From positions 1 through 33,170 of the forward strand of contig JAFSJF010000102.1 in assembly GCA_017439405.1 (NCBI GenBank): a stretch of 33,170 nucleotides of DNA, given 5' to 3'. This stretch comes from Bacteroidales bacterium (lineage in GTDB: Bacteria; Bacteroidota; Bacteroidia; Bacteroidales; F082). Below are positions 3,607 to 32,277 of the stretch, in pieces (the stretch's first letter is position 1; each line of letters starts with the position of its first letter). The notes beneath the pieces are model-generated. The model ran no database searches. It was not told the origin of the DNA and worked only from the letters and a program-made list of their open reading frames with translations. The position numbers and the translations under genes are program-made.

Positions 3607-4791
3607 ATGGCCAAGGAAAAGAGAATCAAAGAGCCTATAAAGTTAAGGCAGAAGAAAATCGCTGACGGCAATGTCAGCCTATACCTCGACATCTATTGGA
3701 ATGGGAAACGGAGCTACGAGTTCCTGAAGCTGTACCTGATTCCCGAACGCACCAAAGAGGATAAGGAAAAGAATCGGCAGACCCTGCAGCTCGCCAATTC
3801 GGTGAAGGCGAAGCGCATCGTGGAAATGCAGAACGGGTCTTTTGGCTTCAAGTCGGACTTTGCCACCGATACCCTATTCTTCGACTATTATAGGGCGATG
3901 TGCCAAAAGAGGCTTGGAGCCGAAAGCAGGAGTAATTGGGGGAATTGGTTTTCGTGCCTCCACCACCTGAAAAAGTATGAGAAAAACGAGAGAATCACCT
4001 TTGCCGAAATCACCCCTGAATGGGTCGAGGGCTTCAAGGAATATCTTGATGACGATGCACGGGCATGGGAACACGACAAACGGAAGCGCAACAAGGAAAA
4101 GCCGCTGGCACGCAATTCCAAGCTGTCGTACTTCAATAAGCTGCGGGCTTGCCTGAATCAGGCTTTTGAGGATAGGATTATCCCCATTAACCCGTGCCGT
4201 GGGGTCGAGAACTTCAAGGCCGAGGAAGGAACGAGGATGTACCTGACTATTGACGAAGTGAGGAAAATAGCCCAAACGGATTGCGAGTACCCGCGAATTA
4301 AGGACGCATTCCTTTTCAGTTGCCTTACGGGTTTGAGACGGAGCGACATATTGAGGTTGCGCTGGGGCGATGTGTTCACCCAAGGCGACTACACACGAAT
4401 CATATTCAGGCAGAAAAAGACCAAAGGCCAGGAATACCTCGACATCACCGACCAAGCCGCCGCCCTGATGGGTAAGCGTGGCGACCCTGCGGATTTGGTT
4501 TTTGAGGATATCCACTCCCCCACCTGCACCAATAGGGCGGTTCAGGAATGGGTATTGAGGGCTGGCATCAATAAGAAAATCACTTTCCATTGCGGCCGTC
4601 ATACCTTCGCCACTATGATGCTTGACATAGGCACGGATATTTACACGGTGTCGAAGTTGCTTGGCCACAAGGAACTTTCCACCACGCAGATCTATGCGAA
4701 GGTGATGGATAAAAACAAGCAGGCCGCCGTGTCGAAGATTCCCGATGTGTTGGGTGACGAAGGCGAAACGGTTTGGCGGCTTGATGTTTAG
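3607..4791 (+). CDS. int: Phage tyrosine recombinase (integrase)
   Basis: A 394-residue tyrosine recombinase of the Bacteroidetes prophage/transposon type. Residues 1-90 form the arm-type DNA-binding domain, about 90-210 the SAM-like core-binding domain, and 215-390 the catalytic domain. Catalytic residues are visible: Arg244 in TGLRRSD, His328 and Arg331 in FHCGRH, His354 in LLGHKE and the nucleophile Tyr363 in TQIYAKV. It should recombine attP with the chromosomal site at the 3' end of mnmE. It is transcribed rightward and its stop overlaps by 4 bases the end of the convergent gene at 4788-5051. No excisionase lies beside it; the HTH protein at 8358-8669 is a candidate. Confidence 0.96.
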   Translation: MAKEKRIKEPIKLRQKKIADGNVSLYLDIYWNGKRSYEFLKLYLIPERTKEDKEKNRQTLQLANSVKAKRIVEMQNGSFGFKSDFATDTLFFDYYRAMCQKRLGAESRSNWGNWFSCLHHLKKYEKNERITFAEITPEWVEGFKEYLDDDARAWEHDKRKRNKEKPLARNSKLSYFNKLRACLNQAFEDRIIPINPCRGVENFKAEEGTRMYLTIDEVRKIAQTDCEYPRIKDAFLFSCLTGLRRSDILRLRWGDVFTQGDYTRIIFRQKKTKGQEYLDITDQAAALMGKRGDPADLVFEDIHSPTCTNRAVQEWVLRAGINKKITFHCGRHTFATMMLDIGTDIYTVSKLLGHKELSTTQIYAKVMDKNKQAAVSKIPDVLGDEGETVWRLDV

Positions 4792-14782: not shown

Positions 14783-16504
14783 ATGATGAAAAAAGAAGAA
14801 ATCAGATTGATGTATGTGGATTTGTTCTGCGGTGCTGGCGGGACCAGCACGGGCGTGGAAAAAGCGATGTGGCACGGCGAAAAGTGCGCCCGTGTGGTCG
14901 CTTGCGTGAACCATGACCCGATGGCCATTGCCAGCCATGCGGCAAACCACCCTGAAACGATGCACTTCACCGAGGACATCCGCACGCTGAACCTCGACCC
15001 GTTAATCCGTCACCTTGACAGGTGCCGCAAAAAGTACCCTGACGCATTGGTGGTGTTGTGGGCATCGTTGGAGTGTACCAATTTTAGCAAAGCCAAAGGA
15101 GGCCAGCCCCGTGACGGTGACAGCCGCACCCTTGCGGAGCATCTTTTCCGCTACATCGATGCAATCAAGCCCTCTTACATTCAGATTGAGAATGTGGAGG
15201 AATTCATGTCGTGGGGCGACCTTGACGAACATGGCCACCCCGTGAGTAAGGACAAAGGCCGTTGCTACGTGAAATGGTGCAATGAGGTCATCAGCCGCGG
15301 CTACCACTACGACTTCAGGCTGTTGAACGCCGCCGATTTCGGGGCATACACGAGCCGTAAGCGGTTTTTCGGTCAGTTTGCGGCCAATGGCCTTCCCATC
15401 AACTTCCCCATGCAGACCTACTCGAAAAACGGGGATGATGACGGTGGCCTTTTCCAATTATACAAGAAATGGAAACCCGTGCGCGAGGTGCTGGACTTGC
15501 AGGACGAAGGCGTGAGTATTTTCGTCCGTGAAAAGCCCCTTTGCGAAAAGACCTTGGAGAGGATTTTCGCGGGGTTGGTGAAGTTCGTTGCAGGTGGCAA
15601 ACAGCAATATGACGCATGGATTTTGAAATATAACTCGATGAATCAGGACGGCCACCACAACGCCCCTTCCATCGATGAACCCTGCCCCACCGTGGCCGTT
15701 CAGAACCGTCTCGGCCTGGTTAAGGTGCAGTACTTATCAAAGCAGTTTGGCGGCGACCCAGCCGGAAAGAACATTTCGATTGACAAACCAGCGGGAACCC
15801 TGACCACTATCGACCATCACGCTTTGGTGTCGGCCAAGTTCATTGATTCGTATTACGGGAACGGGAACCAGCATTCAGTCGATGACCCGTGCCCGACCAT
15901 TCCGACCAAAGACCGCTTTGCCATGATAACCCCAAAATTCCTCGATATGCAGTACGGGAATGGCACGCCTATGTCGGTGGATGCGCCCGCTGGAGCCGTG
16001 ACCACCAACCCGAAACACATTCTTGTTTCCCCTCAATGGTTGATGAGTACCAACTTCAACAATATTGGCAGCTCGCTTGATGAGCCATCGCCCACGGTGA
16101 CGGCCAACCACAAGTGGCATTACCTGATGAACCCGCAATTTCAGTCGGCTGGCGGCAGCGTGGACAAACCAGCCTTCACCCTGATTGCCCGCATGGATAA
16201 GATGCCGCCCTACCTGATTACCGCCGAGGGCGGTGCATTGGGGATTGAGGTGTACGACACCGACAGCCCAATGACCGTGAAGATTAAGGAGTTCATGGCG
16301 GCTTACGGCATCATCGACATCAAGATGCGGATGCTGAACATTCAGGAGTTGAAGCGGATAATGGGCTTCCCTGACGACTACATCCTGAAAGGCAGTCAGG
16401 CCGACCAAAAGAAGTTCATCGGGAACGCCGTGGAGGTCAATATGTCGAGGGTGCTTTGTGAGGCACTTTGCAGCGGATTAAAGAATGAAAGGGTTACGGC
16501 ATGA
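14783..16504 (+). CDS. DNA (cytosine-5) methyltransferase with repeat-filled target region
   Basis: A 573-residue C5 methyltransferase. Motif I is DLFCGAGGTSTG (from residue 13). The catalytic loop is SLECTNFSKAKGG with Cys98; Glu replaces the usual Pro before Cys, as in a phage-linked subgroup. Motif VI is QIENVEEF, motif VIII has SRKRFFG, and the last motifs are in RIMGFPDDYIL and KKFIGNAVEV. Between VIII and IX, residues about 296-500 are six or seven degenerate repeats of the form S-hydrophobic-D-x-P-x-x-T. It transfers methyl from S-adenosylmethionine to cytosine, probably protecting phage DNA from host restriction. No restriction enzyme is beside it. It overlaps the next gene by 4 bases. 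Confidence 0.93.
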   Translation: MMKKEEIRLMYVDLFCGAGGTSTGVEKAMWHGEKCARVVACVNHDPMAIASHAANHPETMHFTEDIRTLNLDPLIRHLDRCRKKYPDALVVLWASLECTNFSKAKGGQPRDGDSRTLAEHLFRYIDAIKPSYIQIENVEEFMSWGDLDEHGHPVSKDKGRCYVKWCNEVISRGYHYDFRLLNAADFGAYTSRKRFFGQFAANGLPINFPMQTYSKNGDDDGGLFQLYKKWKPVREVLDLQDEGVSIFVREKPLCEKTLERIFAGLVKFVAGGKQQYDAWILKYNSMNQDGHHNAPSIDEPCPTVAVQNRLGLVKVQYLSKQFGGDPAGKNISIDKPAGTLTTIDHHALVSAKFIDSYYGNGNQHSVDDPCPTIPTKDRFAMITPKFLDMQYGNGTPMSVDAPAGAVTTNPKHILVSPQWLMSTNFNNIGSSLDEPSPTVTANHKWHYLMNPQFQSAGGSVDKPAFTLIARMDKMPPYLITAEGGALGIEVYDTDSPMTVKIKEFMAAYGIIDIKMRMLNIQELKRIMGFPDDYILKGSQADQKKFIGNAVEVNMSRVLCEALCSGLKNERVTA

Positions 16505-18711
16505 CTGACAATGAAATGAGAGAATATCAGGCTTTTTTGGAGCAAAAGAAAGCCCAGCGCATTGAGAGTGGTTTCATCGTGGATGATTCGGAGTTGAACC
16601 CAAAGCTATTCGGATTCCAAAAGTATTGCGTGAAGCGGGCTTTGGCTGTCGGCAAGTTTGCCCTATTTGAGGATTGCGGATTGGGTAAGACAATACAGCA
16701 GCTTGAATGGGCGAGGCAAGTTGCCGCAAAAACCGAAATGCGCGTCTTGATCCTTGCGCCTCTTGCCGTGATTGGTCAGACCATCAAGGAGGGTGACAAA
16801 TTCGGGTATAAGGTGACGGAATATGACGAAGCCGCCACTTGCATAGGTGATTATGACATTTTCATCACCAACTACGATAATTTGGAGAATGTCGATGTAT
16901 CGTGTTTCGGCGGTGTCGTTCTCGATGAAAGTTCCATACTGAAGAATTTTCAGGGTAAGACCCGCACGGCTTTGATTGATGCTTTCAGGCATACCCCTTA
17001 CAAGCTGGCTTGCACGGCGACACCCAGCCCAAACGACACCACGGAGATTTGCAACCATGCGGAGTTTTTGGATGTTATGAGCCGAAACGAAATGCTGGCA
17101 ATGTATTTCGTCCATGATGGCGGCTCGACATCGGATTGGAGGCTGAAAGGCCATGCAAAGCAATCGTTTTGGGATTTCGTAAGCACATGGGCTGTGATGC
17201 TTAACAAGCCCAGCGATATAGGCTTTGATGATGACGGCTACGAGTTGCCCCCGCTGAATGTGATTCAGGATGTGGTTGAGACCCCGCAAAGGGATAACGG
17301 CCTGCTTTTCAATTCGACCGCCGTCAATGCCACCGACTTCCACAAAGAGCTTCGCCTGACCATGCAATTAAGGCTTGACCGCGTGGCCGAGTTGGTGAAT
17401 GGTTCGGATGAAAGTTTCATAATTTGGATTGGTCAGGATGAAGAAGGGAAATACCTTCGCTCACTGCTGCCTGATGCCGTTGAGGTGAAGGGGTCGGATT
17501 CGCGGGAATACAAAAAGGAGAAACTGCTTGGATTCGGCAAGGGTGACTTCCGCATCCTGATTACCAAGCTGAAAATCGCCCAATTTGGCCTGAATTACCA
17601 AAACTGCCACAATCAAGTGTACGCCTCGCTTGACTTTTCGTTTGAGGCCACCTATCAGGGCATTAGAAGGTCGTACCGTTTCGGTCAGACCAAGCCCGTG
17701 AATGTCTATCTCGTCACCACTGACACCATGCAGAACGTGAAGGATAGTTTCGATGCCAAGCAAGCCGCATTCAAGGAAATGCAGGCCGCAATGACCTTGG
17801 CCATGAATCGCAATATCAACAATCAAATAATTCTCAAAAAGATGGAAACGACAAATCAGTACAAATCGGATTGCTGCGACATCCGCCAAGGTGATTGTGT
17901 GCAGCTCATTCAGTCCATTCCCGATGAAAGCATTGGTTTTTCGGTGTTCTCGCCGCCGTTTGCGGAGTTATACACTTACTCCGATAAGCTGGAGGATATG
18001 GGCAATTCAAAGGATTACAACGAGTTTTTCATGGCCTTCAAGTATTTGGTCAAGGAACTTTATCGCGTGATGTGGAGCGGTCGCAATGTGGCCGTGCATT
18101 GCATGGATTTGCCCATCCAAAAAGGCAAAGAGGGCTATATCGGCCTGCGTGACTTTTCGGGTATGATACTGCAAGCCTTCACCGAGGCTGGATTCATCTA
18201 CCATTCAAGGGTGACGATTTGGAAAAACCCCGTGACCGAAATGCAGCGGACAAAGGCTTTGGGCTTGCTTCATAAGCAGGTGAAAAAGGATGCAGCGATG
18301 AGCCGTGTGGGAATCCCTGACTATTTGATGGTGTTCCGCAAGAACGGCGAACATGAGCATCCCGTCCAATGTGATATTTCGGTCGATACGTGGCAGAAGT
18401 ACGCTTCGCCCGTGTGGATGGATATTGACTACTCCAACACCCTGAATGCCGCCAAGGGTCGGGATGAGAATGATGAAAAGCATATTTGCCCATTGCAGCT
18501 CGATACCATCGAGAGAGCCATCATCCTTTGGAGCAACGAGGGCGACCCCGTATTGACCCCGTTTTTGGGAATCGGCTCCGAGGTTTACGAGGCCATAAAG
18601 CTGAACCGCTTCGGCATCGGCTTTGAGTTGAAGGAATCATACTTCAATGAGGCCGTAAAGAACTGCAAGGCCATTGAATCGGAAAAGAACCAGCAAACCC
18701 TATTCGATTGA
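16501..18711 (+). CDS. Fusion of SNF2-like helicase and N4/N6-type DNA methyltransferase
   Basis: A 736-residue two-part protein. Residues 1-435 are a superfamily 2 SNF2-like ATPase: Walker A DCGLGKT (58-64), motif II LDES (141-144), motif III TATPSP, and motif VI in QGIRRSYRFGQ. Residues 450-736 are a beta-class DNA methyltransferase: SPPF (484-487) comes before the S-adenosylmethionine loop FLGIGS (688-693), and SPPF points to N4-cytosine methylation. A linked motor and methyltransferase recalls type ISP or type III restriction enzymes, but no nuclease domain is seen, so modification or anti-restriction is more likely. It overlaps the C5 methyltransferase by 4 bases; the pair would mark phage DNA in two ways. 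Confidence 0.9.
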   Translation: MTDNEMREYQAFLEQKKAQRIESGFIVDDSELNPKLFGFQKYCVKRALAVGKFALFEDCGLGKTIQQLEWARQVAAKTEMRVLILAPLAVIGQTIKEGDKFGYKVTEYDEAATCIGDYDIFITNYDNLENVDVSCFGGVVLDESSILKNFQGKTRTALIDAFRHTPYKLACTATPSPNDTTEICNHAEFLDVMSRNEMLAMYFVHDGGSTSDWRLKGHAKQSFWDFVSTWAVMLNKPSDIGFDDDGYELPPLNVIQDVVETPQRDNGLLFNSTAVNATDFHKELRLTMQLRLDRVAELVNGSDESFIIWIGQDEEGKYLRSLLPDAVEVKGSDSREYKKEKLLGFGKGDFRILITKLKIAQFGLNYQNCHNQVYASLDFSFEATYQGIRRSYRFGQTKPVNVYLVTTDTMQNVKDSFDAKQAAFKEMQAAMTLAMNRNINNQIILKKMETTNQYKSDCCDIRQGDCVQLIQSIPDESIGFSVFSPPFAELYTYSDKLEDMGNSKDYNEFFMAFKYLVKELYRVMWSGRNVAVHCMDLPIQKGKEGYIGLRDFSGMILQAFTEAGFIYHSRVTIWKNPVTEMQRTKALGLLHKQVKKDAAMSRVGIPDYLMVFRKNGEHEHPVQCDISVDTWQKYASPVWMDIDYSNTLNAAKGRDENDEKHICPLQLDTIERAIILWSNEGDPVLTPFLGIGSEVYEAIKLNRFGIGFELKESYFNEAVKNCKAIESEKNQQTLFD

Positions 18712-25476: not shown

Positions 25477-26022
25477 ATGAAGAACGACATCTATCCCGAC
25501 CTGAAGCGGCTTTTCGATGAAACCAGCAACCGAGGGCGCAAACTGTCGTACACGCCCGAACAAGTCGTGGAGGAGTTCAAGCTCTATGTGGAGTCGCTTG
25601 CCTCCAACCCCATCGAGGTGGAGACCGAGTACCAAAGGCAGACGCAGACCAACGGCGAAGGCACACAACGCCAAGGCCAGATGCGCAAGCAGCGTTTCAG
25701 CCGACCGCCGAAGGTGACGGACTTCGTTGTCAGGTGGTTGGGGAAAAACATGTCTTGGTGGACTGAAATCTCCGAATCGAAGCGGCATGGCGACAAATTT
25801 TCGAACATCAAAGATAAAATAACGCAGTACTGCTACGACTGCAAGCTGGACGGTGCCATCGTGGGCATCTACAACGCCAACATCATCGCCCGCGACCTCG
25901 GGCTTCAGGAAAAGGTGGCGGTTGAAAAGAAGGAGAAGGACCAGCTCGATGACATGACACCCGATGAAATCAACGCGGAAAAGGAGAGGCTGATGAAGCT
26001 CTACAAGAATGGCAACGATTGA
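25477..26022 (+). CDS. Terminase small subunit
   Basis: A 181-residue protein. The N-terminal part has an HTH-like segment (SYTPEQVVEEFKLYVESLAS), and the centre has the small-terminase pattern KITQYCYDCKLDGAIVGIYN with IIARDLGLQEKV, as in the gp3 type that recognises pac or cos DNA. A Lys/Glu-rich tail with DDMTPDEINAEKERLMKLY may contact the large subunit. It overlaps the large subunit gene by 14 bases, which supports the pairing. Confidence 0.85.
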   Translation: MKNDIYPDLKRLFDETSNRGRKLSYTPEQVVEEFKLYVESLASNPIEVETEYQRQTQTNGEGTQRQGQMRKQRFSRPPKVTDFVVRWLGKNMSWWTEISESKRHGDKFSNIKDKITQYCYDCKLDGAIVGIYNANIIARDLGLQEKVAVEKKEKDQLDDMTPDEINAEKERLMKLYKNGND

Positions 26023-28447
26023 CGAGGTGAAGCGGATGCGCGAAAACGTGAAGTCGCTTGCACCAAGCAACTTCCCGTTTTTCATCGGATACATCAACCC
26101 GAAGTACTCCGAGGCGTGGTTCCATCGTGTCATTTCAGAGCGTTGCCAAATGCTTTTGGAGGGCAAAATCAAGAATTTGATGGTGTTTGTCCCACCTCAA
26201 CATGGAAAACAATTGGGTGACAGCACCTTGATACCAACGCCGAACGGATTTGTCAGGCATGGCGATTTGAGGGCTGGCGACTATGTGTTTGGCAGGGATG
26301 GCAAGGCGGTGAAGGTGCTTGCGGTTTCCAGCAAGGTAAGGTCTGAATATGTGGTCACTTTCAGTGACGGGCAGCGGATAGAGTGCCACGGCAACCATGA
26401 ATGGGTGGTCTATGACCGCTCATACAAGACGGAGCGGACGCTTGAAACCAAGTACATGGCGACGCAAAAACTCTATTCGGGAACACCGGGCAGGCGCGGT
26501 TGCCACCATAGATTTCAGGTATCACCAACCGTTTGCGTTGATTTCAATAAGCGCGATGTTGAAATAGACCCTTACACCCTCGGAGCATGGCTTGGGGATG
26601 GGAAAAGCAGTGCGCCGCAAGTTACCATCGGGAATGGAGACACAGAGATAGTTGCGAAAATACCATACAAGCACACTTCGAGTTGGGTTCAGGAAGGAAC
26701 GGGTGTTGAATACTATTACTATGGGGCGCAATTGAAACTTTCATTTTACAACCTCGTCAATAACAAGCATATTCCGCATGACTACATCTTCAATTCGGTT
26801 GAATGCCGGAAGGAACTTATTGCAGGGCTGATTGACACGGACGGCTATGTGTACCCGAAAAACGGCAGGGTCACGATAAGCAACACCAACAAGGCCATCA
26901 TAGACGATGCGGCCTTGATATTAAGGTCGCTGGGGCAGAACGCAGTGGTGACATCATTCCTTCCGAAAACATCAAGCAGCGGAGTTGATGGCAAGCAGAT
27001 GGTCTATCAACTATGTTTCAACCCGACAACGGACTTCCCTACCGTGGTGCCGAGAAAAAGGATTGTACGCACCATTGCCAACAGGCGCAGATCTATCGTA
27101 AGCATTGAACGCATGGACGGGCTGGAGATGGGGAACTGCATTCAGGTGGAGGGTGAGGTTTACCTTGCTGGCGACACTTTCATCCCCACCCATAACAGTG
27201 AGATAATTTCCCGAAACTTCCCCGCATGGGCGTTGGGAGTGAACCCTGATTTGAAGATTGCGGGTTGCGCTTACTCTGCCGACCTCGCGGGGCAGTTCTC
27301 AAGGTCGATTCAGCGCATCATCGACAGCAAGGAGTACCAGGAGATATTCCCCGAAACCTACCTCAACAGTGCCAACATCCGAACAACGGCGCGTGGCTAC
27401 CTTCGCAATGTTGACTTGTTCGAGACCGTGGGACACAAGGGCTTCTACAAGGCCGTTGGCGTGGGCGGGCCATTGACGGGAACGCCCGTTGACATCGCCA
27501 TCATCGATGACCCCGTGAAGGATGCCACCGAAGCCTATTCGCCCGTCTATCGTGAACGGGTGTGGAATTGGTACAACACCGTACTGACCACCCGTTTGCA
27601 CAACGATTCCAAGCAGCTTTTCATTATGACCCGCTGGCATGAGGATGACCTTGCAGGGCGCATCCTGAAAGCGGAGCCTGACGAATGGACGGTGCTTTCG
27701 ATTCCAGCGATATGCGAAAAGGCCAATGACGGGGGATTGAGCCAAAGGCATATCGGCGACCCGCTATGGCCTGAACGGCATTCCTTGGCGAAGTTGGAGA
27801 AACAAAGGAACCGTTCACCGCGTGAGTTCAGCGCATTGTACCAGCAGCGTCCCGTCATCGAGGGCGGTAACATCGTCAAGCGTGATTGGTTTGGAAAGAT
27901 TACCCCTGCCGACTTCAAGGCGTTGCGGTTTGAGGAACCGATTCACTTCTACCTTGACACCGCCTATGAGGAACGCAAGGTAAAGAGCGACAACGACCCC
28001 AGTGGCATCCTTGCGGCCTGCCGTATCGGTACGCTGATATACCTGACCCATGCGATGAAGGTTTACAAGGAAATGCCCGACTTGCTTCGATTCCTCCCTG
28101 AATACATCAGGGCGCAGGGCGGCAATGGTGAGAGCAAGCTCCATGTCGAGCCGAAGGCCAACGGCAAGAGCGTGGTGCAGATGTTGAAGGCCGTCTCGAC
28201 CCTGAATGTGAAGGAAACGGAGTCGCCAACGGATTCCAAGGAAACGAGGTTGAAGGTGGTGTCGCCCCGCATCGAGTGCGGCCGTGTGGTGCTGGTCGAA
28301 GGGTCGTGGAACGATGACTTTTTGGATGAGGTCTGCGGATTCCCAGCGTTGGAGCATGACGAGTTTGTGGATATTCTCGGGTACGCCATAAACGACCTCT
28401 ACGAGGACGATGACGATATAGACTACGACAACATTAGGATTCGATAA
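26009..28447 (+). CDS. Terminase large subunit interrupted by an intein
   Basis: An 812-residue precursor. Extein residues 1-67 and 397-812 join into a 483-residue terminase, the usual size. The Walker A PPQHGKS is split between Lys67 and Ser397 by the intein. After splicing, the ATPase has Walker B IAIIDDP (residues 497-502 of the precursor), and the C-terminal RNase H-like nuclease has Asp650 in FYLDTAYEE and acidic residues near HDEFVDILGYA. The enzyme cuts and pumps phage DNA into the head. Because the P-loop is broken, the precursor cannot hydrolyse ATP until spliced. It lies between the small subunit and portal genes. Confidence 0.95.
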   Translation: MATIDEVKRMRENVKSLAPSNFPFFIGYINPKYSEAWFHRVISERCQMLLEGKIKNLMVFVPPQHGKQLGDSTLIPTPNGFVRHGDLRAGDYVFGRDGKAVKVLAVSSKVRSEYVVTFSDGQRIECHGNHEWVVYDRSYKTERTLETKYMATQKLYSGTPGRRGCHHRFQVSPTVCVDFNKRDVEIDPYTLGAWLGDGKSSAPQVTIGNGDTEIVAKIPYKHTSSWVQEGTGVEYYYYGAQLKLSFYNLVNNKHIPHDYIFNSVECRKELIAGLIDTDGYVYPKNGRVTISNTNKAIIDDAALILRSLGQNAVVTSFLPKTSSSGVDGKQMVYQLCFNPTTDFPTVVPRKRIVRTIANRRRSIVSIERMDGLEMGNCIQVEGEVYLAGDTFIPTHNSEIISRNFPAWALGVNPDLKIAGCAYSADLAGQFSRSIQRIIDSKEYQEIFPETYLNSANIRTTARGYLRNVDLFETVGHKGFYKAVGVGGPLTGTPVDIAIIDDPVKDATEAYSPVYRERVWNWYNTVLTTRLHNDSKQLFIMTRWHEDDLAGRILKAEPDEWTVLSIPAICEKANDGGLSQRHIGDPLWPERHSLAKLEKQRNRSPREFSALYQQRPVIEGGNIVKRDWFGKITPADFKALRFEEPIHFYLDTAYEERKVKSDNDPSGILAACRIGTLIYLTHAMKVYKEMPDLLRFLPEYIRAQGGNGESKLHVEPKANGKSVVQMLKAVSTLNVKETESPTDSKETRLKVVSPRIECGRVVLVEGSWNDDFLDEVCGFPALEHDEFVDILGYAINDLYEDDDDIDYDNIRIR
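26210..27196 (+). mobile_element. Class 3-type intein with LAGLIDADG homing endonuclease in the terminase P-loop
   Basis: A 329-residue insert, frame preserved. It begins Q-L-G-D-S-T-L-I with Gln at position 1 in place of the usual Cys or Ser. It ends THN before the +1 Ser. The class 3 markers all appear: Trp at intein residue 65 in GNHEW (block B), Cys at 310 in NCIQVEG (block F, where Asp or another residue is usual) and Thr at 327 just before the final HN. The endonuclease has both dodecapeptide motifs: LGAWLGDG (precursor 191-198) and AGLIDTDG (272-279). Insertion at GK/S is a common terminase and ATPase site. Confidence 0.92.
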
Positions 28448-28463
28448 CTAAAACTTCAATATT

Positions 28464-29936
28464 ATGGTATTCTTCGATTTATTCCGCAATTATGTGAACG
28501 CCCTGATTGGAAGGAATCAGGAGTTCGAGAAACTGTTGGCCGCAAAGGACATCACGGCGGTCAAGGAGCAGATGACCTCAAGGGTGGATGCCGTGTTGCT
28601 CGCACTGAAGGAGTACGACACCAAGTCCCATGAGATTATGAAACGCCCTGACAAGGAAATCACCGACAAGAAGGGCAAGTTCTTACGGTATGAGCCGACT
28701 TGGAAACTGCCCATCCCCTATCCCGTTTTCATCAACGAGATTGCGTTGGTTTTCCTTTACGGGCGACCCGTGAAGTGGACGCAGCTCTCCGAGGGTACGG
28801 ACGAAGGCTTCAAGGCATATCAGGACTTCATCAAGGAAACGAGGTTTGACAGCAAAATCCGCGAGTGCAAGCGCATAGCCGGTGCAGAGACCGAATCGGC
28901 CATGCTTTTCCGTGTGTACCGCGATGAGGATGACAACACGGCGAAATGCCAAATCAGGGTGCTGGCAAAGAGCAAGGGCGATGAGATTTACACCCGATTC
29001 GACCAATACGGGAACATGCTTGCCTTTGCCTGGGGCTACTTCGTGAAGGATGAAGGCCAGGGCGTGACCTACCACTTCGATGTGTACACAAAGAAGGCCA
29101 TCTACCATTGCTCAAAGAAGTCGTTGGGCTGGGATGTGGTTGAGGAAATAAACTTCATCGGCAAGATTCCCGTCATCTACTTCCAGCAGGAAAAGGAATG
29201 GGATGGGGTGGAGATATTGATTCACCGCGAGGAATCGATTGCCAGCCATACCGCCGACACCAACGACTACTTTGCCGACCCGATGCTTTTGATGGCTTCG
29301 GACATCATCAGGAATCTGCCCGAGAAGTCGGAGGCTGGAAAGACGCTCTTCACCAACGACAAGGACGGTGTGGAAAAGGCGGCAAAGTATCTGACTTGGG
29401 ACAATGCCTCCGAAAGCAAGCAGAAGGAATTGGAATGGTTGCAGACCCAAATCCTGCAAAAGTCGTTCACCCCGAACATCACCACCGATAGCCTGAAAGC
29501 CATTTCGCAGCTGTCGGCCAAGGCTTTGAAAACCGTGATGATGCTGGCCGACATCAAGGCGGCGAAGCGTAAGGAAACCCACGATGAGTTGCTTGACCGT
29601 GCGGCCTCCCTGATTAAGGCCATTATCGGAAACGTGCTTGATGTGTCGCTGAAATCGCAATGCGACAGCCTGATTGTCGGGCATGAGTTCCAAGAGCCTT
29701 TCGGCGATGACATTGCCGATGACCTCGACAACGTGATTAAGGCCGTTGATGCCGGCATCATGTCAACCGAGACGGGCATTGAGCTGAACCCGCTAATCAA
29801 AGACCCGCACCGTGAATCGGAGCGCATAGCCAGCGAGAGCGAGGAGCGGATGAAGCAGCAGCAGTCCATCTTCGGCAATGGCAACGAGGGAGGCGCGGCA
29901 TCGTTTGACGATGACGATGATGACAACCAAAAGTGA
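28464..29936 (+). CDS. Portal protein (SPP1 gp6-like)
   Basis: A 490-residue protein with the portal pattern: IPYPVFINEIALVFLYGRPV, later YTRFDQYGNMLAFAWGYF, IPVIYFQQEKEWDGVE, and the region DNASESKQKELEWLQTQI to LSAKALKTVMMLADIKA typical of the crown and clip. The C-terminus is a long acidic tail (DDDDDD). It forms the dodecameric ring through which DNA passes at one vertex of the capsid, where terminase docks. It sits 16 bases after the terminase stop and 7 bases before the MuF gene. Confidence 0.92.
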   Translation: MVFFDLFRNYVNALIGRNQEFEKLLAAKDITAVKEQMTSRVDAVLLALKEYDTKSHEIMKRPDKEITDKKGKFLRYEPTWKLPIPYPVFINEIALVFLYGRPVKWTQLSEGTDEGFKAYQDFIKETRFDSKIRECKRIAGAETESAMLFRVYRDEDDNTAKCQIRVLAKSKGDEIYTRFDQYGNMLAFAWGYFVKDEGQGVTYHFDVYTKKAIYHCSKKSLGWDVVEEINFIGKIPVIYFQQEKEWDGVEILIHREESIASHTADTNDYFADPMLLMASDIIRNLPEKSEAGKTLFTNDKDGVEKAAKYLTWDNASESKQKELEWLQTQILQKSFTPNITTDSLKAISQLSAKALKTVMMLADIKAAKRKETHDELLDRAASLIKAIIGNVLDVSLKSQCDSLIVGHEFQEPFGDDIADDLDNVIKAVDAGIMSTETGIELNPLIKDPHRESERIASESEERMKQQQSIFGNGNEGGAASFDDDDDDNQK

Positions 29937-29943
29937 GTGAATC

Positions 29944-32277
29944 ATGGCAAAGAAGCAAGGCATTGACCCGAAAGCCCTCACCGCCGCAAGGATAAAGCGG
30001 ACGGAGGCATACGCCGAGAAAGTGAGGCTGTTGTTTGCGCAGACCGTGAATGACATTCTCACCCTGAACAAGACCATGCCGAAACTGGATGACGGCGTGA
30101 TGTTCTCGTTTGACGGTGAAAGCCTGAAAAGGCAAAAGGAGGTTGAGGCCTTGCTTCGCCGCCTGCATTCGGCGGTGACGATGGCCATTCGTGAGGGTGT
30201 GAGCCTTGAATGGGCTGAGGCCAATGCCGAGGCCGACAAACTCATCAAGTCGGTGTTCGGTCAGGCCGTGCTGGATAGCCCTGAATTTACGGCATGGACA
30301 CAGCGCAACACCGCCGCCCGTGACGCTTTCCTTGCGAGGTCGGAAAAGGGCTTGAACCTCTCCGATAGGGTTTGGAAGTCGGTCAGGCAGTTGCGGGATG
30401 AAATGGAGGTGGCCATTACGGTTTCCGTTGGCGAGGGCAAGTCTGCCTCCGCGATGTCGAGGGAGGTGAGGCAGTACCTGAACGACCCCGATTTGATGTT
30501 CAGGCGTTTCCGCTATAAGAAGGGCGAGGATAAGGACGGCAATCCCGTGTACGGCCGCAAGTGGAAAAAGCGGGTGAAGGACGAGGCCACGGGCAAATAC
30601 AAGTGGATTGACTATGATAGGGATTCGTACCCTACGGGGCAGGGTGTTTACAAGTCATCGGCAAAGAACGCTATGCGCCTGACCCGCACCGAGACCAATA
30701 TCGCCTACCGCCGTGCCGACCATGAGCGGTGGATGCAGGAGGAGTTCGTCATCGGGCAGCGCATTCGCCTCTCGAACCGCCACCCACGGAAAGACATCTG
30801 CGACAAGTTGCAGGGCGACTATCCCAAGGACTTCGTGTTTGACGGCTGGCACCCGCAATGCTTTTGCTACGCCGTCCCAATCACCATTGCGGACGAGGAC
30901 ACGGACTTCATGGAGAAGTGGTTCCTTGAGGGCAAGGACTGGAAGGGCGAGCTGAAGCGGCGGGCGGAGGAGCGCATGATTAGGGACTATCCCGAAGGCT
31001 TCAAGGAATGGGTGGCCGAACACGCGGACGACATCAAGGCGGCGCGCAAGCGCGGCACGGAGCCGTACTTCATCCGTGAGAACGCGGAGATTGTAGATCG
31101 GTTCATGGGCGATGCAGCACCCGAACCGATGAAGGTGATGTATGTCCCGGATGGTCTGTCAGGTGAGCAGCGCAAGGCATGGATTGACAACAGCAGGGAA
31201 ACGGCGGAGGCCATCGGGGTCGTTCAAGGCGAGCCTATGGCATTCGATGAGGCCAACGAGTTGCGCGGCAACCCGCACTACGAGGCTGGAACCGCAAGCG
31301 GCTACACCACCAACTGCCAATGTGCCGTGGTGGCCAACGAGCTGCGCCGCCGTGGCTTCGATGTTGAGGCGTTGCCCAACATCGGGACGAAAGGCAGCGT
31401 CCCCTATCGGTTGTCGAGGCAGACGGAACTGGCTTGGATTGACCCAGCCACGGGCGAGGCTCCGAAGAAGGTGGAGTGCAACAAGGTGGACTATGTGCTG
31501 AAGGGCTGGAAGGTGCAAAGGAAGGGGCTGACCATAAACGAGATAACGGCCAACATTGACGCGGCCACCAAGCAGCCGGGCAGATACCACCTCGAATTTG
31601 CATGGAAAGGCAAGGACGGCGAAGGCCACATCATCACCGTTGAGCGTCTTGCTGACGGCAAGCTGCGCTTCTACGACCCGCAGACTGGCAAGGTGACGAG
31701 TTGGGTGAAGGACTACTCGAAGAGGGTTTCCACGATTGGCAAAGTGACTGTGCTTCGCGTTGACGGCCTGATGCCCAACCCCGAAATCGTCAAGGAGGCG
31801 GTGGTCAAGGCTGGGACGGCGAAGTCGGCAACGGCGGCGGCTGGAATCGTTGTGAATGGTGGAATAAAAGGCAGTGACGGAGCGAAGCCAAAGAACACAT
31901 TGCCCGAAAGCGTAAGGGCAAGGCGCGCGGAGATAAAGAAGGCCGCAATGCAATTCAGGACGCAGCCTCCAATGCATAATCCTGATTTTGACAAGGAAAT
32001 CGGTATTTCAGGAAGCGGCATTGACGAATGGCTGAACCAGCCACACAAACACTATGCGGAGAAAAACGAGATGCTTTTGGAAATCGGAAGTGTTATCGAA
32101 AAGGCGAAATACATGGGTGTTTCAACCTACAAGGGCAAGGTCGCCCATATTTTTGAGACCGAACTATGCGGGGAAAAGACATGGATTATCGCAACCGATG
32201 TTCCTGGAAGGGGTGTGGCTATTTATAGCATTTCCGATAGTCCGAACATACTTAACGACATAAAGAAACCCGCCTGA
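29944..32277 (+). CDS. MuF-type head morphogenesis protein with papain-like and BECR/LPD3-like C-terminal domains
   Basis: A 777-residue protein, far longer than the 250-400 usual for phage MuF/gp7. Residues 1-150 are helical. The MuF domain follows (about 150-312): RLTRTETN (245-252), CDKLQGDYP and HPQCFC (303-308). Residues about 420-640 show a papain-fold toxin pattern: Cys458 in TTNCQCAVVA, His562 in GEGHIITV and Asp578 in FYDPQTG. Residues about 676-777 look like an LPD3 or BECR-type nuclease domain: SGIDEWLNQPHKHY, HIFETELCGEKTWIIATD and AIYSISDSPNI. The protein probably rides in the virion and enters the cell with DNA. The two effectors are named by pattern. Confidence 0.85.
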   Translation: MAKKQGIDPKALTAARIKRTEAYAEKVRLLFAQTVNDILTLNKTMPKLDDGVMFSFDGESLKRQKEVEALLRRLHSAVTMAIREGVSLEWAEANAEADKLIKSVFGQAVLDSPEFTAWTQRNTAARDAFLARSEKGLNLSDRVWKSVRQLRDEMEVAITVSVGEGKSASAMSREVRQYLNDPDLMFRRFRYKKGEDKDGNPVYGRKWKKRVKDEATGKYKWIDYDRDSYPTGQGVYKSSAKNAMRLTRTETNIAYRRADHERWMQEEFVIGQRIRLSNRHPRKDICDKLQGDYPKDFVFDGWHPQCFCYAVPITIADEDTDFMEKWFLEGKDWKGELKRRAEERMIRDYPEGFKEWVAEHADDIKAARKRGTEPYFIRENAEIVDRFMGDAAPEPMKVMYVPDGLSGEQRKAWIDNSRETAEAIGVVQGEPMAFDEANELRGNPHYEAGTASGYTTNCQCAVVANELRRRGFDVEALPNIGTKGSVPYRLSRQTELAWIDPATGEAPKKVECNKVDYVLKGWKVQRKGLTINEITANIDAATKQPGRYHLEFAWKGKDGEGHIITVERLADGKLRFYDPQTGKVTSWVKDYSKRVSTIGKVTVLRVDGLMPNPEIVKEAVVKAGTAKSATAAAGIVVNGGIKGSDGAKPKNTLPESVRARRAEIKKAAMQFRTQPPMHNPDFDKEIGISGSGIDEWLNQPHKHYAEKNEMLLEIGSVIEKAKYMGVSTYKGKVAHIFETELCGEKTWIIATDVPGRGVAIYSISDSPNILNDIKKPA

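Follow-up and report, generated by a model that had tools for sequence, protein, structure and literature searches.

Inteins in the terminase large subunit (TerL) of phages were described in 2016, some of them at the P-loop and some belonging to class 3 (PMC5050341). Class 3 had been further defined in 2011, together with a proposal of phage origin (as related in PMC4031507), and is recognised by residues at block positions B:12, F:4 and G:5 (PMC5050341; PMC5222942). The mycobacteriophage intein TerL1-a interrupts the P-loop between the Lys and the hydroxyl residue (Lys/Thr); TerL1-c, -d and -e are class 3, and the class of TerL1-a is not given in the accessible text of that study (PMC5050341). 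TerL inteins have also been described in crAss-like phages, again with no class named in the accessible text (PMC7886860), and a 2017 table of CRISPR-targeted Porphyromonas regions lists a 'Phage terminase, large subunit @ intein-containing' hit by 15 spacers (Table 2 of PMC5570325). Here we analysed a 33,170-nucleotide stretch (the window) assigned to a Bacteroidales bacterium of GTDB family F082 (assembly GCA_017439405.1, contig JAFSJF010000102.1), in which the terL gene of a phage carries a long insert. With a probability of about 0.92, we read this insert as a mobile class 3 intein carrying a LAGLIDADG homing endonuclease, lodged between the Walker A Lys and Ser of TerL in a phage of a probable Bacteroidota host.

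The TerL frame of 812 codons runs uninterrupted through the insert, which is in frame and flanked by FVPPQHGK and SEIIS, with Lys/Gln and Asn/Ser junctions. The insertion point thus separates the Walker A Lys from the Ser that follows it (PPQHGK/SE), in keeping with the site of a phage TerL P-loop intein such as TerL1-a, where the Walker A Lys is followed by Ser or Thr. Two intein-free relatives (loci L005 and L006) carry an unbroken PPQHGKSEI, and a third, L008, also reads PPQHGKSE, matching the window flanks minus 329 residues. C-terminal to the insert, Pfam recognised Terminase_6N over TerL residues 399–629 (1.8e-09, above the cut-off) and Terminase_6C over residues 711–795 (0.00016; 22.1 bits against a cut-off of 22.6). 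The 67-residue N-extein had no Pfam match and was recognised by alignment, being 47% identical over 60 residues to the beginning of the intein-free TerL of L005. For annotation, this means that 329 residues of such terminases are not terminase.

The signature residues of the insert agree with class 3. Residue 1 is Gln and not Cys, Ser or Thr, none of which class 3 requires there; Trp65 occupies B:12, Cys310 occupies F:4, and Thr327 at G:5 begins a Thr-His-Asn end that is followed by Ser +1. Trp65, His63, Cys310 and Thr327 align with Trp67, His65, Cys124 and Thr143 of the class 3 intein of M. chimaera (6rix), whose catalytic roles are given in PMC7664689. The N-terminal part of this alignment is strong (32.3 bits) and the C-terminal part is weak alone (4.5 bits); the assignment of Cys310 and block G therefore draws on the alignment of the whole family and on the fold match. 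In the 11-row alignment, His63, Trp65, Cys310, Asp130 and Asp211 are invariant, and the predicted model combines a Hedgehog/intein (HINT) fold with a LAGLIDADG fold. Two LAGLIDADG motifs with acidic residues D130 and D211 are present, and Pfam matched Hom_end (7.9e-09) and LAGLIDADG_3 (6.7e-08). The first-pass annotation of this DNA had proposed a class 3-type intein with an intact endonuclease in the terminase Walker A motif; its frame, Lys/Ser site, Trp-Cys-Thr (W-C-T) residues and numbering all proved right, both motifs and both acidic residues are kept, and W65 and C310, whose placement outside blocks B and F would have spoken against it, lie inside these blocks when aligned to solved class 3 inteins. 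Judged from these residues, splicing that would be started by Cys310 in the class 3 manner is the best reading.

Several observations weigh against this interpretation. The predicted model was built on 8 sequences, and of five models the best alone was good (83.8, against 58–66 for the others). Pfam models of the splicing domain stayed below their cut-offs (Hint_2, 16.2 bits versus 28.4), and the intein splicing model PF14890 had no match in the window's genome. In addition, where DnaB class 3 inteins have a His before the block F stretch LYLAG, the window intein has Glu, so that Asn cyclisation may lean on His328 alone. This position varies among relatives, being Gly in the 8 nearest rows inspected and, across 100 rows with Trp and Cys (near-copies included), Gly in 54, His in 24, not read in 9 and another residue in 13. 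Finally, the footprints of homing described below were read in relatives and not at the window locus, and no allele lacking the intein turned up for this phage itself.

Table 1 Coordinates of the interrupted terL gene, the parts of its intein and the adjoining packaging genes in the window
Feature	Position	Strand	Evidence
TerL gene (N-extein, intein and C-extein)	26009..28447	+	812 codons plus stop; open frame; Pfam matches
N-extein, 67 residues, ending in PPQHGK	26009..26209	+	Resembles the start of intein-free TerL (L005, L006) up to the Lys
Intein, 329 residues (987 nt), class 3 signature with LAGLIDADG endonuclease	26210..27196	+	Alignment, Pfam, predicted fold
Gln1, first intein residue, not a nucleophile	26210..26212	+	Position varies among relatives
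Block B His63-Glu64-Trp65 (His at B:10, Trp at B:12)	26396..26404	+	Aligned with His65 and Trp67 of 6rix
First LAGLIDADG motif, LGAWLGDG (Asp130)	26579..26602	+	Asp130 invariant; LAGLIDADG-type fold matches
Second LAGLIDADG motif, LIAGLIDTDG (Asp211)	26816..26845	+	Hom_end and LAGLIDADG_3 matches; Asp211 invariant
Block F Cys310 (F:4), predicted initiating nucleophile	27137..27139	+	Aligned with Cys124 of 6rix; invariant (11 rows)
Block G Thr327-His328-Asn329	27188..27196	+	Aligned with the Thr-His-Asn of 6bs8 and 6rix
C-extein, beginning with Ser +1, completes the P-loop PPQHGKS	27197..28447	+	Frame, Pfam, junction alignment
Terminase small subunit	25477..26022	+	GP3_package 4.1e-08 (Pfam); PHROG 606 4.9e-15
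Portal protein	28464..29936	+	SPP1_portal 1.5e-34 (Pfam)

To place the intein among its relatives, we searched 50,697 phage records (tblastn) and obtained one-piece matches across the insert in Porphyromonas phages phage005a and phage005b and in Bacteroides phages BF486P1, BK649P1, BF766P4, B124-14 (two records) and BF702P1. In IMG/VR, a single-sequence query found 13 loci and the 11-row alignment at least 562 relatives, of which the best 80 were kept. The aligned set comprised 112 records (window included, the duplicate L023 left out), 103 of them distinct at 95% identity and 102 of these with blocks A and B. Because these loci were collected for their similarity to the intein of the window, the following counts do not describe a random sample: 92 of the 102 are W-C-T, 6 are inteins that begin with Cys1 and show Leu and Gly in the columns of the window's Trp and Cys, 3 carry Ser in place of the Cys (W-S-T) and 1 is F-C-T. 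This last one, L096, has Phe instead of Trp at B:12 and keeps the other class 3 residues. Among the 92 W-C-T relatives, the +1 residue is Ser in 68 and Thr in 24, and a strict pattern found both LAGLIDADG motifs in 76; for comparison, such motifs were reported in 82.5% of a set of 1701 class 3 inteins taken from NCBI nr (PMC7891396). Class 3-type inserts were also seen in the TerL of crAss-like phage cr111_1 (L113) and in a protein annotated as hypothetical of the crAss-like Bacteroides phage DAC17 (L107). Class 3-type inserts are thus common in TerL.

Two further suggestions of the first-pass annotation did not survive this comparison. Gln1 had been put forward as a distinguishing feature, and residue 1 takes 13 forms in the 92 W-C-T relatives (A 34, L 22, Q 15, E 6, D 4, M 3, P 2 and one each of N, K, F, R, G and S); we therefore rejected the view that Gln1 is catalytic or rare. 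The intein had also been expected to widen the known range of its class, and the same insert already stands in deposited Porphyromonas and Bacteroides phage genomes. A contig search with a single-sequence query, which reaches close relatives only, added one locus in a Porphyromonas metagenome-assembled genome, and the window copy is accordingly not the first of its kind in Bacteroidota. When 173 genomes from the family were scanned, the window's own genome gave the only match.

The closest known inserts are those of phage005b, B124-14, BF486P1 and BK649P1, which we compared by sequence (phage005a, BF766P4 and BF702P1 are known as matches only). They share the GK/SE site and the W-C-T residues with the window intein, differ from it in length by at most 2 residues and begin with Gln or Glu. 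Intein identity to the window is 67% for Porphyromonas phage005 (local alignment) and 53–56% for B124-14, BF486P1 and BK649P1, and the intein tree unites L001, L002 and L003 with the window, L011 and L022 in a single clade (100/99 support). The three Bacteroides phages read (L002, L003, L004) have PPQTGK before the insert, in contrast to PPQHGK in the window; the intein-free sister L008 has PPQHGK, so that in these phages the flank differs together with the intein. In their feature tables, the Porphyromonas and Bacteroides relatives are annotated as terminase or hypothetical protein, with the intein unnamed. A literature search, largely without subscription papers, found no paper naming this TerL insert as class 3, and neither the B124-14 nor the vB_BfrS_23 paper uses the word intein in its main text. 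A published remark that vB_BfrS_23 and Barc2635 have a smaller TerL than B124-14 goes unexplained in the accessible text (PMC7644841); the reason is that B124-14 carries the intein, as both other phages match as one uninterrupted TerL.

More distant systems share the class 3 features. The TerL of phage Toto (L106) reads ARKNGK/A...W-C-T...THN/T at about 32% identity to the window; Toto probably carries TerL1-a; the main text of PMC5050341 does not mention the phage by name. The TerL1 inteins belong to the TerL1 family and to actinobacterial hosts, whereas the window gene matches Terminase_6. The TerL insert of Gordonia phage Sampson (L007) has the class 3 residues and a GK/S site, and differs in its 38.6% identity, Leu1 and PSQVGK flank. 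The class 3 DnaB inteins of M. smegmatis (6bs8) and M. chimaera (6rix, 6riy) share the HINT fold and the W-H-C-T active site with the window; they are helicase mini-inteins without an endonuclease and with His before the LYLAG stretch, whereas the window intein has an endonuclease and Glu. Taken together, the window intein is a well-supported new case of a known, less common class, with relatives that are unlabelled in public phage genomes, and an identifiable class 3 intein clade is now placed in Bacteroidota phages.

Evidence for mobility comes from related phages. Among the 30 records listed of 135 for the B. fragilis-type TerL, the insert is present in 6 of the 23 with at least 75% identity (H116–H138), and the other 17 have one uninterrupted TerL; one further record at 60–80% identity lies outside this selection. 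When two phages listed twice are merged, the insert is found in 5 of 21 phages. The intein-free alleles that the first-pass annotation had suggested looking for thus exist in related phages, and even in phages of the same host strain, BF766P1 being without the insert and BF766P4 with it. Cultured B. fragilis phages with and without the insert could therefore serve to study homing and class 3 splicing in gut anaerobes.

We compared BF486P1 with the intein-free BF698P1 around the insertion in ungapped 50-bp bins, leaving bins past an indel unused (from ~800 bp upstream for L002 and L004 and ~200 bp for L003). Upstream, identity is 64, 84, 70 and 82% in the first 200 bp and 92–100% between 200 and 800 bp; the downstream values are 78–92% in the first 400 bp and 82–100% beyond. 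Such a peak of divergence at the insertion is what co-conversion during homing would leave, and local recombination or a change of the target that escapes cutting could look alike. Between BF486P1 and BK649P1, identity is 99.9% in the intein DNA, 100% in the preceding 240 bp and 94.2% in the following 1200 bp.

Signs of transfer also come from comparing inteins with exteins. In global alignments, the window and Porphyromonas phage005b are 69% identical in the intein and 43% in the C-extein, and the window and L011, the nearest extein relative found, are 57% identical in the intein and 74% in the C-extein. Joining the window with L001 and L022 is rejected on the extein data (approximately unbiased (AU) test, p 1.83e-28), and joining L010 with L001 and L022, as the extein tree does, is rejected on the intein data (AU p 0.000484). 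The latter grouping has 93/99 support in the extein tree, without a star, and a long-branch warning was issued for L012, L007 and L013. A topological conflict between window and L011 was not upheld, as a 10-row intein tree joins them at 51/36 only; the signs of transfer used here are therefore the L010 conflict and the identity gap with L001. Nonsynonymous and synonymous divergence (dN and dS, Nei–Gojobori) is 0.119 and 1.113 for the L001–L022 intein pair and 0.102 and 2.111 for L002–L003, and dS is saturated for the window intein paired with L001 or L022. The L011 intein has 272 residues and has lost the first LAGLIDADG motif. With full, decayed and empty states all present, as in the usual homing cycle, these data support homing in this lineage.

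In the class 3 pathway, Cys310 would attack the Lys-Gln1 peptide bond to form a block F branched thioester, as known for the class, and the N-extein would then be transferred to Ser +1. Asn329 would cyclise with the help of His328, and an O-N shift would join PPQHGK to SE and so make the P-loop. The endonuclease would cut intein-free terL alleles in mixed infections, and repair would copy the element in. The lack of a nucleophile at residue 1 is compatible with class 2 and class 3 alike, and Ser +1 might attack the Lys-Gln1 bond directly, with Cys310 as a bystander. We consider this extremely unlikely, given that Cys at F:4 together with the Trp and Thr, the mark of class 3, is kept in 92 of 102 distinct relatives. 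Moreover, mutation of the F:4 Cys abolished splicing in three class 3 mini-inteins, and in the one of these with Cys +1, this residue did not take over (PMC5222942).

Splicing gates the packaging motor trivially, in that the junction lies within the P-loop. A regulated switch, in which oxidation or metal binding at Cys310 keeps TerL inactive until packaging is wanted, would go further. The P-loop is indeed present only after excision, the window intein holds further cysteines, and the catalytic Cys of the class 3 intein M. smegmatis DnaBi1 forms a disulfide on oxidation that reversibly stops splicing (PMC6195587). However, five phage terminase inteins spliced readily when assayed, with precursor readily visible for one only (PMC5050341), the insert is not needed for packaging control in the 17 of 23 B. 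fragilis-type terL records without it, and a homing endonuclease would also pick a conserved part of a gene such as the P-loop; a switch is therefore very unlikely. An element whose endonuclease or splicing step is already impaired is likewise highly improbable for the window copy: decay does occur in the family, as the L011 intein illustrates, but the window keeps its splicing residues (the block F His excepted) and both acidic endonuclease residues without a frameshift, and in a copy unable to splice, the P-loop of an essential gene would stay disrupted.

A different departure from the class was found outside the window. Cys is stated to be conserved at F:4 in all class 3 inteins in a 2014 review (PMC4031507), and the set of 1701 class 3 inteins was built with Cys required at F:4 (PMC7891396). 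Five TerL inteins at a GK/T site nevertheless have Ser at this position: L056 (the same intein in L120–L122), L029 (identical to L123), L124, L125 and L035. All keep Trp at B:12, Thr at G:5 and the Thr-His-Asn end, have Thr at +1 and encode the Ser by TCA, TCT or TCC; residue 1 is Q, S, L, L and A, respectively. The host frames of L056, L125 and L035 are uninterrupted, with Terminase_6N and LAGLIDADG_3 matches above the cut-off. Ser F:4 occurs in 5 of 68 rows; L056, L029, L124 and L125 form one clade (SH-aLRT 100) and L035 is placed separately, so that the tree needs two changes, and one origin is not rejected (AU p 0.399). The wider TerL intein family may thus not be bound to a cysteine nucleophile, and we tentatively propose, at somewhat less than even odds, that the Ser F:4 members would splice in the class 3 manner through a serine oxygen ester. 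Alternatively, Thr +1 would attack directly in L056, L124, L125 and L035, whose residue 1 is unable to act as the nucleophile. This lineage is more unusual than the window intein itself.

The Bacteroidota setting named in the first-pass annotation is probable, as close phage relatives infect Porphyromonas and Bacteroides and the window's genome has SusC-type receptors. The genome gave 26 matches to the carboxypeptidase-regulatory domain, 23 of them over the cut-off; of two such frames inspected, one is most similar to SusC-type proteins and both have TonB-receptor plug domains. SusD (PF07980) had no match in this genome, which speaks against a usual gut Bacteroidales host. A Bacteroidota host is thus likely, with SusC-type receptors and phage relatives in its favour, and the contig could be misbinned.

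An integrase at 3607–4791 points to a temperate phage. Positions 29944–32277 encode a 777-aa protein with matches to head-morphogenesis families and PHROG 16625 (labelled Bxa ADP-ribosyl transferase) in the N-terminal part and to a papain-fold glutamine deamidase domain (PF15644, 2.2e-13) and LPD3 (PF18798, 1.4e-12) in the C-terminal half. Another composite protein, of 736 aa at 16501–18711, matches phage DNA helicase families over its first part and families of DNA methyltransferases over the second, and is preceded by a separate methyltransferase gene at 14783–16504.
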